Part shown: piece after piece, positions 12,143 through 14,622 of the stretch
Numbering within the stretch: position 1 is the first letter of the stretch
How the letters are laid out: every line of letters begins with the position of its first letter
NCBI RefSeq assembly: GCF_017641085.1
Contig: NZ_JAEPPI010000003.1
Span: forward strand, 696,894 to 760,893
From: Gracilimonas sp.
GTDB lineage: Bacteria > Bacteroidota > Rhodothermia > Balneolales > Balneolaceae
Reading direction: 5' to 3'
DNA length: 64,000 nt
Notes under the pieces: model-generated
Database searches by the model: none
Seen by the model: the letters and a program-made list of their open reading frames with translations, nothing else
Told to the model about the DNA's origin: nothing
Made by a program: the position numbers and the translations under genes

Positions 12143-14215
12143 ATGTCTGATAATAAACTTAAAAAACAACTTGGCCTCTACGATGTATTTGCCATCTGTA
12201 CCGGTGCTATGTTCAGCTCCGGGTTCTTCTTGCTACCGGGAATTGCGGCAGCCCAAACAGGGGAGTCGGTGTATTTGGCTTACCTGGCTTCCGGAATTCT
12301 GATTATACCCGCCATGCTCAGCGTGGCAGAATTATCTACGGCTATGCCAAAATCGGGGGGAACCTATTACTTCCTGGATCGAAGTCTGGGTCCGATGGTA
12401 GGTACCATTGGCGGGTTAGGATCGTGGGTTGCCCTTATGTTTAAAAGTTCCTTTGCCCTTATTGGTATGGGAGCTTATTTAGCACTCTTCGTGGATGTTT
12501 CATTTACGATGCTAGCCCTCATTCTGACCCTGATATTTGGGTTCCTGAATATTTTCGGAGCGAAAGAAACAACACTCCTTCAGAGAATATTGGTCACGGT
12601 GTTAGTATTGATTATGGGACTTTTCATCATACAGGGGGTCTCGGCCGCCGGGTTGGATATCAGCATATCGGATTCGGAAAATGGATTTTTTAGCAACAAC
12701 CTGCATGGTTTTATATCCACCATAGGCCTGGTCTTTGTGTCTTATGCCGGGCTTACCAAGGTTACCAGTGTGGCTGAAGAAGTGAAGAATCCGGATCGGA
12801 ATATTCCTCTCGGGATGATTCTTTCACTCACAACCGCCTCTCTGATCTATGTTGCCGGAGTGTATATAATGCAGCAGGTTCTGACGGCAGAAGAGTTCTA
12901 TTCAAGCCTTACGCCGGTAGCCGATGCGGGAGCAAAATTCATGAACTGGTTACCCGGTTCAGGTGGCATGCTCCTTATTGTGGTTGCGGCAGTTGCTGCC
13001 TTTGCCTCAACCGGAAATGCCGGCATTATGTCTGCCTCAAGGTATCCGTTCGCTATGTCGAGAGATAAGCTTATGAGCCCTAAGTTCAGCGATATCGGTA
13101 AGCAGGGTACTCCTTACTATGCCATTATCGTAACGGTAATTTGCATGATTCTGATTCTTTTGATTTTTGATGTGGAATCGGTAGCCAAGCTTGCCAGTGC
13201 GTTTCAGTTGCTGCTGTTCGGGTTTATGTGTTTAGCAGTTATCGTAATGCGCGAAAGCAACATCAACAGTTACAGGCCGGGATTCAAATCACCGCTATAC
13301 CCGTGGGTTCAAATTGCCGGGATGTTAATCTCTGTTTGGCTGGTAGCAGAAATGGGAATCCTTGCTGTATCACTTACCGGTTTCATCGTGGTGATGTGCG
13401 TGGCGTGGTACATCTACTATACAAAAGGCCGGATAAACCGAAGAGGAGCGATATTCCACGTTCATGAGCGACTGGGTAAGAAAAGGTATGATGATCTGGA
13501 GCTCGAGCTTTTGAACATCCTCAGCGAGAAAAACACCGGGGAGCATCTTTCATACAAAGAAACCATTGCCCGAAGCATTATTGTAGATGTGGATTCGGAG
13601 AATACAAAAGTGGATGAATTGTTAAGAGAAGCCTCTAAAATTCTGTACGGCCGGTTGAAGGTGGAAAAAAAGATGCTGTTGAATGAGCTTACTGAAAACT
13701 ACAACCATCGCTTCAATAAATTGAGCAGCGGGGTAATTTGCAGTTATCATGCGATGGCTGAAGTTTCAGCTCCTGAATTGGTTGTTTTCCGGATTAAGAA
13801 ATCGCTGGACCTTGAAATAACAGGAGTTGATGGCAATGTGTATATGTACGCCATTCTCTTAGTCCCTGAAGAAGAGGAAGGATTGGATATCCGTTTGGTT
13901 GGGCATCTGGCTGAAATTGTTCAGTCATCCGGCTTCAAAAAGCGATGGATGCAATCCGGTAACAAACGCGAACTCAGGGAGTGCTTGCTGAGTGAAGGTC
14001 ACTTTATCCAGCTGAAAGTGAATGAAAGCAAGCAGCTCATGGAATTTGCAGGTAAAAAAATCCGTGACATAAACCTGCCCGGGTCAAGTTTGATCACCAT
14101 TATTTACCGGGGAAGTGAACTCATCATCCCGCATGGAAATACCCTAATCAATGAGGAAGATGAATTCCTGATGGTAGGTGATCCGGATGACATTAAAGAG
14201 CTGATGAGCAGTTAA
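12143..14215 (+). CDS. APC family permease fused to EIIA-like and RCK_C-like domains
   Basis: 690 residues from ATG 12143 (MSDNKLKKQLGLYDV); an upstream GTG in frame is not needed. Residues about 8-430 form a 12-helix APC amino-acid transporter (YDVFAICTGAMFSSGFFLLP, YAGLTKVTSVAEEVKNPDRN). Residues about 470-620 resemble PTS EIIA of the fructose/nitrogen type; His536 in VICSYHAM lines up with the phosphorylated histidine position, followed by HLAEIVQSSGF and the RECLLS tail. Residues about 634-690 resemble the TrkA/RCK C-terminal ligand domain (IRDINLPGSSLITIIYRGSE, DEFLMVGDPDDI). The soluble domains probably regulate transport. The substrate is unknown. Confidence 0.82.
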   Translation: MSDNKLKKQLGLYDVFAICTGAMFSSGFFLLPGIAAAQTGESVYLAYLASGILIIPAMLSVAELSTAMPKSGGTYYFLDRSLGPMVGTIGGLGSWVALMFKSSFALIGMGAYLALFVDVSFTMLALILTLIFGFLNIFGAKETTLLQRILVTVLVLIMGLFIIQGVSAAGLDISISDSENGFFSNNLHGFISTIGLVFVSYAGLTKVTSVAEEVKNPDRNIPLGMILSLTTASLIYVAGVYIMQQVLTAEEFYSSLTPVADAGAKFMNWLPGSGGMLLIVVAAVAAFASTGNAGIMSASRYPFAMSRDKLMSPKFSDIGKQGTPYYAIIVTVICMILILLIFDVESVAKLASAFQLLLFGFMCLAVIVMRESNINSYRPGFKSPLYPWVQIAGMLISVWLVAEMGILAVSLTGFIVVMCVAWYIYYTKGRINRRGAIFHVHERLGKKRYDDLELELLNILSEKNTGEHLSYKETIARSIIVDVDSENTKVDELLREASKILYGRLKVEKKMLLNELTENYNHRFNKLSSGVICSYHAMAEVSAPELVVFRIKKSLDLEITGVDGNVYMYAILLVPEEEEGLDIRLVGHLAEIVQSSGFKKRWMQSGNKRELRECLLSEGHFIQLKVNESKQLMEFAGKKIRDINLPGSSLITIIYRGSELIIPHGNTLINEEDEFLMVGDPDDIKELMSS

Positions 14216-14323: not shown

Positions 14324-14333
14324 ATGTGGTATG

Positions 14334-14406
14334 TACCGCGTACGGGATTTGAACCCGTGCTACCGCCGTGAAAGGGCGGCGTCCTGGACCCCTAGACGAA
14401 CGCGGC
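14334..14406 (-). tRNA. tRNA-Glu (anticodon UUC), distal copy
   Basis: Minus-strand cloverleaf: acceptor GCCGCGT with ACGCGGT (G1-U72 wobble), D-arm TCGTCTAGGGG, anticodon loop CTTTCAC (UUC), T-arm GGTTCGAATCC. CCA is not encoded. Identical over 76 bp to the copy at 14550-14622. Last gene of the six-tRNA transcript. Confidence 0.95.
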
Positions 14407-14541: not shown

Positions 14542-14549
14542 ATTAATAG

Positions 14550-14622
14550 TACCGCGTACGGGATTTGAACCCGTGCTACCGCCGTGAAAGGGCGGCGTCC
14601 TGGACCCCTAGACGAACGCGGC
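14550..14622 (-). tRNA. tRNA-Glu (anticodon UUC), proximal copy
   Basis: Same sequence and fold as the gene at 14334-14406, including the G1-U72 wobble and A73. The identity extends slightly beyond the gene ends (14549-14624), which suggests a recent duplication or gene conversion. Confidence 0.95.

Follow-up and report, generated by a model that had tools for sequence, protein, structure and literature searches.

A Gracilimonas APC permease with an EIIANtr-like and RCK_C tail in which tyrosine occupies the phospho-histidine column

Gene, domain architecture and predicted fold

The window, i.e. the whole stretch of 64,000 nt that was analyzed, originates from the genome of Gracilimonas sp. 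(GCF_017641085.1, contig NZ_JAEPPI010000003.1, positions 696,894-760,893 of the forward strand). On its plus strand, an open frame at 12143..14215 encodes a protein of 690 aa that consists of an APC permease, a pseudo-EIIANtr domain and an RCK_C domain. A GTG codon located 9 bases upstream of 12143 is a possible alternative start, and the opposite strand over 12143-14215 is full of stops in the one frame that was translated. Downstream of the gene lies a cluster of six tRNA genes in the opposite orientation, in which two copies of tRNA-Glu(ttc) (14333-14406 and 14549-14622) flank a tRNA-His.

The permease domain (12170..13345, residues 10-401) was assigned to the Pfam family AA_permease_2 with an E-value of 1.2e-44. 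It is followed by a linker (13439..13543, residues 433-467) containing the motif 'RxGAIFHVHxRLG', which is conserved family-wide and was modeled with low confidence. The EIIANtr-like domain was delimited by structural matches to residues 468-619 (13544..13999); the Pfam family PTS_EIIA_2 covers residues 481-616 of it with 28.8 bits, barely above the curated cut-off of 27 (E 1.4e-6). The RCK_C domain (Pfam TrkA_C, E 4.8e-10) comprises residues 635-688 (14045..14206), and the Pfam scan of the window protein called no RCK_N (TrkA_N) domain. Among the NCBIfam matches listed (25 of 39 families), no family scored above its cut-off and the best match was a general amino-acid transporter model.

The fold of residues 433-690 was predicted with AlphaFold2 from an alignment of the window protein and 60 relatives, resulting in a model with a mean pLDDT of 81. 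Its best structural match is the EIIANtr protein 2a0j (Foldseek E 5.7e-9; VIA Z 17.9 over 146 residues, rmsd 2.3), followed by the cytoplasmic domains of BTR1 (7x1i, Z 15.6, 140 residues) and other SLC4 proteins. The RCK_C part of the model matches 5f29, an RCK_C domain solved with c-di-AMP, with a TM score of 0.82 by target, and 4ys2, an RCK domain likewise solved with c-di-AMP, is also among its best matches; we take both structures to be CpaA. The same region was modeled for a His-bearing relative (L123, mean pLDDT 79.5), for which the best match is again EIIANtr. The first-pass annotation had called the three domains by eye and had set structure prediction beforehand as the check on the EIIA fold. 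This fold is present in the model, all three domains are borne out by Pfam profiles and the predicted fold, and the architecture supports the general idea of a permease carrying two cytoplasmic control modules.

The phospho-histidine column

A scan of the genome contigs with the single window protein found no relative, while relatives were found with an alignment as the query, the best 80 of 91 being kept. The family alignment was built from 172 matching ORFs and contains 117 distinct rows, of which 115 have the EIIA columns. By profile, the invariant histidine of 25 His-bearing relatives aligns with the 'IPHG' histidine of two solved PtsN proteins, which we take to be the phospho-histidine. 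The loop from Gly530 to Glu545 has 16 residues in 115 of 115 rows, so that the register cannot be shifted by a gap. By this alignment, the phospho-histidine column is residue 535, which is a tyrosine in the window protein (codon TAT, 13745..13747), and the second conserved EIIA histidine corresponds to residue 582, an aspartate (codon GAT, 13886..13888). A profile of the rows with aspartate agrees when compared to the separate EIIA of the same genome: the tyrosine falls on the histidine of its 'IPHA' motif and the aspartate on its second histidine.

The first-pass annotation had placed the phosphorylation site at His536 (codon CAT, 13748..13750), which is the neighbor of that column and thus off by one position. 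It had proposed that the EIIA domain is phosphorylated there by HPr or NPr and that the permease is gated by this modification together with a ligand of the RCK_C domain. The predicted EIIA fold speaks for this proposal, as does the presence of HPr, EI and a free EIIA in the genome. In addition, when the separate EIIA and the window protein are aligned pairwise (9 bits, with a 3-residue gap), His536 is paired with the EIIA histidine. This pairing was set aside since the family profiles disagree with it, and His536 was rejected as the phospho-site because of the constant loop length. His536 was found in 4 of the 115 rows, namely in the window protein and three congeneric ones, whereas all 72 rows having both histidines lack it; the residue is thus not conserved among orthologues, an outcome that had been named beforehand as one that would refute the claim. 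With Asp582 in place of the second histidine, gating of this chain by phosphorylation of His536 is very improbable. A reading of a single sequence, by eye or pairwise, can therefore put a catalytic residue one position off.

Columns 535 and 582 hold His and His in 72 of the 115 rows, another residue and His in 15, another residue and Asp in 26, and His and Asp in 2. For tree building, 5 of the 117 rows were dropped (three near-identical ones and two without EIIA columns), after which the same classes count 69, 15, 26 and 2 of 112. In the 43 rows lacking the full pair, column 535 is occupied by Tyr (32 rows), Phe (4), His (2) and by Arg, Ile, Met, Gln and Asp (one each). Because of Tyr535 and Asp582, the window protein is predicted to be a very unlikely phospho-acceptor of the PTS.

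The closest relative (98% identical) and one relative of 75% identity have CAT instead of TAT at codon 535, which is one base away, and both carry Asp in the second histidine column. Column 535 may thus toggle within the genus, and weak phosphorylation may occur there. At codon 535, four species of one genus (the window gene, L007, L008 and L009) have TAT twice and CAT twice.

Branches of the family and constraint on the tail

A tree was calculated from the permease part alone and is therefore independent of columns 535 and 582. In this tree, all 43 rows without the full histidine pair (hereafter the dead branch) lie on one side of a single branch with an SH-aLRT support of 99, while the 69 rows of the intact branch keep both histidines. 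Several long outgroup branches meet in the 112-row tree; in a thinned tree, for which eight of these were omitted and the other 104 rows were cut to 55, the same branch was recovered with an ultrafast bootstrap of 100 and an SH-aLRT of 99. The tree is unrooted, and both histidines are also found in the more distant rows, which according to their record titles belong to SAR324, Planctomycetota, Phycisphaerae, Thermoanaerobaculia, Leptospiraceae and Rhodothermaceae, so that loss of the histidines is the simpler reading.

By record titles, the intact branch covers several phyla. The dead branch consists of Balneolaceae and Alphaproteobacteria (Henriciella, Hellea, Hyphomonas, Algimonas, Litorimonas and other bins) as well as single bins of Verrucomicrobiales, Gammaproteobacteria and Rickettsiales.

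The genome of the window also encodes a His-bearing paralogue (G000:C2:833691-835778) that is 52% identical to the window protein and has both histidines; it was one of the three near-identical rows dropped from the tree set, where L046 stands for it. It is located around 16 kb from the gene for HPr (G000:C2:851562-851807), beside which an EI N-terminal domain is encoded from 851883. The separate EIIA with the 'IPHA' motif has 162 residues. With both histidines present in a genome that encodes HPr, EI and EIIA, the phosphorylation proposed in the first-pass annotation fits this paralogue. Lack of PTS genes in the genomes of the dead branch was considered as well and discarded: among 15 dead-branch genomes, including two Balneolaceae, EI was found in 11 and HPr in 14, compared to 10 and 9 of 10 intact-branch genomes outside Balneolaceae, a small difference that proves nothing with many records being metagenome bins. 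A further APC permease of the window genome (G000:C2:219856-221127, in a frame of 783 aa) shares 36% identity with the window permease, restricted to residues 6-437, and therefore probably carries another tail.

The occurrence of both forms in one genome would be expected if the dead copy worked only in a hetero-oligomer with the His-bearing paralogue, one subunit being phosphorylatable and the other not. In 3 of 97 loci (L054, L079 and L088), a dead and an intact copy are indeed tandem genes separated by 92-163 bases. In the window's genome, however, the two genes are located on different contigs, and in 13 of 13 carrier genomes outside Balneolaceae the dead form is the sole such fusion found (E 1e-5). 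Such a pairing was thus rejected as a general rule and is unlikely for the window protein.

The absence of both catalytic histidines would also be explained by a tail that is functionless and decaying, which would leave a mere permease. Consistent with this, the gene is patchy: counting the genome of the window itself, 4 of the 10 genomes from the genus contain a relative of at least 75% identity. Furthermore, the comparison with the 98%-identical relative resulted in a dN/dS of 0.215 for the EIIA part and 0.034 for the permease; these values rest on the closest pair, the other dead-branch pairs being saturated at silent sites. Some mild relaxation of the EIIA part may be hinted at by this difference, yet both values are well below 1. 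Gly580, Arg584, His588 and Glu591 are common to all 28 rows with Asp582; of these four, Arg584 alone is also fully conserved in the remaining 87 rows. At matched permease divergence, the median ratio of EIIA to permease divergence is 2.31 for rows with Asp (157 pairs), 2.27 for the other dead rows (79 pairs) and 2.35 for intact rows (497 pairs), so that the EIIA domain of the dead branch is not drifting faster than that of the intact branch. With the RCK_C domain kept, and with the dead branch extending to Alphaproteobacteria and others, decay of the tail is improbable.

Proposed function, known systems and gene neighborhood

In summary of the sequence comparisons, the three-domain architecture is confirmed and occurs in a broad family, and a phospho-histidine at residue 536 does not hold for the window protein. 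We favor, with a probability of roughly 55%, that the protein is an APC permease whose dead EIIANtr-RCK_C tail descends from a phosphorylatable ancestor and works without phosphorylation. The EIIA domain of this ancestor would have been able to take a phosphate from HPr on its histidine, and in the branch of the window protein this histidine would have been lost to another residue, mostly tyrosine. The RCK_C domain, probably as a dimer, would read a small ligand; given the modeled fold, c-di-AMP is the leading candidate, and a diadenylate cyclase is encoded in the window genome. The pseudo-EIIA would either relay the ligand signal to the permease or dock a partner such as HPr or the free EIIA. 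The permease would then be gated by the ligand on RCK_C, by contacts made through the pseudo-EIIA, or by both, with no role for phosphate in the window copy. In one variant, the window copy would be permanently fixed in the state imposed by unphosphorylated EIIA, since a dead EIIA cannot leave that state, and would answer only to RCK_C.

In the open-licence PMC literature, no paper on an APC-EIIA-RCK_C fusion was found. A related arrangement is LacS of streptococci and lactobacilli, a GPH lactose permease with a fused EIIAGlc-like domain, which is under PTS control (PMC10710835). LacS and the window protein share the fusion of an EIIA-type domain to a permease, and control of a non-PTS transporter by the PTS is a feature of LacS; they differ in the transporter family and in the type of the domain, EIIAGlc in LacS and EIIANtr/EIIA_2 in the window protein. 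Moreover, LacS receives phosphate through HPr, for which the window protein has no phospho-histidine: a phosphorylatable histidine in the fused domain, as in LacS, is absent from it and present in the paralogue and in 69 of the 112 rows. We know of no RCK_C domain in LacS.

In Escherichia coli, unphosphorylated EIIANtr (PtsN) is reported to bind TrkA and YcgO (PMC11808508, PMC13104625). An EIIANtr that controls transporters with RCK-type domains resembles the window protein, in which the combination of the EIIANtr fold with RCK_C on a single polypeptide would fit this known pair of partners. In E. coli, the partners are separate proteins and the transporters carry K+, whereas the window protein is one chain with an APC permease and without the phospho-histidine; for YcgO, the contact with PtsN is reported on the CorC domain and not on the RCK domain.

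The cytoplasmic domains of SLC4 transporters are described as EIIA-like (PMC4664831). In AE1-3 and BTR1, as in the window protein, a domain of EIIA fold forms the cytoplasmic part of a transporter, located N-terminally in SLC4 and after the APC transmembrane domain in the window protein. The transmembrane family of SLC4 differs from the APC permease, and to our knowledge SLC4 proteins have no RCK_C domain. For the other module, the RCK_C domains of CpaA, KtrA, KhtT and BusR bind c-di-AMP (PMC8517857). These proteins share the RCK_C fold with the window protein, which differs by the missing Pfam RCK_N.

The substrate would be an amino acid, as judged by family only. The nearest solved relative of the permease part is 6f34 (E 3.4e-27), presumably GkApcT, and cation-chloride transporters match more weakly than amino-acid transporters. 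In APC permeases, amino acids are bound by a G-S/T-G motif in TM1 and another motif in TM6. The window protein has FSSGFF in TM1 and YAGLTK in TM6, compared to IIGTGIF and YIGFDAV in 6f34.

These differences, together with the gene neighborhood of the relatives, leave room for a permease that carries an inorganic ion or bicarbonate instead of an amino acid and is part of a Na+/pH/HCO3- module. The neighboring genes were clustered by BLAST and one representative per cluster was scanned with Pfam. Clusters of NhaA, of CPA antiporters with TrkA_N and of CPA antiporters carrying both Usp and their own EIIA domain were obtained, further those of SulP (two loci), an SbtA-like Na+/bicarbonate transporter and a P-II-like protein. 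When tandem copies are skipped, a Na+/H+ antiporter directly adjoins the gene in 42 of 97 loci, which are not 42 independent events, as the loci partly overlap (e.g., L043 and L135) and some are shortened by contig ends. An SbtA-like gene lies directly downstream on the same strand in 6 of the 25 loci with the Asp form only, at distances from a 1-base overlap to 33 bases; of these six loci, five have NhaA immediately upstream of the permease, and in five a P-II cluster gene follows. In five alphaproteobacterial loci, the dead-EIIA permease is located between NhaA and the SbtA-like gene. The six loci in which a dead-EIIA permease precedes an SbtA-like gene are L080, L081, L082, L087, L109 and L117.

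The gene context of the relatives thus points to Na+, pH and bicarbonate homeostasis. Nevertheless, both Pfam and the top sequence matches in the PDB point to amino-acid transporters, and the ion-transport neighbors may only serve to return the Na+ or H+ that an amino-acid symporter uses. In addition, none of these neighbors is found beside the window copy, which has no antiporter next to it; the sole NhaA match of the window genome is on the same contig at a distance of about 430 kb, and in an 86%-identical relative NhaA is located 30 bases downstream of the gene. An ion or bicarbonate substrate is therefore rather doubtful.

As a tentative extension of the favored reading, which we regard as conceivable at best, the proteins might form a widespread APC family with an EIIANtr-RCK_C controller that serves Na+/pH/bicarbonate homeostasis, its intact branch being switched by the PTS and its pseudo-EIIA branch, including the window protein, sensing a ligand or partner in parallel to SLC4. 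If this were true, the intact branch would join LacS as another type of bacterial transporter that is phosphorylated directly. The His-bearing rows are a candidate second example, and the dead branch is their natural control, as it combines the same kind of permease and the same tail with the absence of a phospho-histidine; the pair of branches allows one to ask how an EIIA domain serves a transporter when it can be phosphorylated and when it cannot.

Two further arrangements were observed at His-bearing copies. The CPA-type antiporters of one neighbor cluster (C5, 14 loci; L043:7616-10090 was scanned as the representative and contains Usp and PTS_EIIA_2) lie beside His-bearing APC-EIIA-RCK_C genes, so that two EIIA-fused transporters are adjacent. 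In L066 and L067, the His-bearing copy has an EIIA-fused antiporter upstream and, directly downstream in the same orientation, a SulP gene; the SulP copy of L066 was scanned and consists of Sulfate_transp and STAS.
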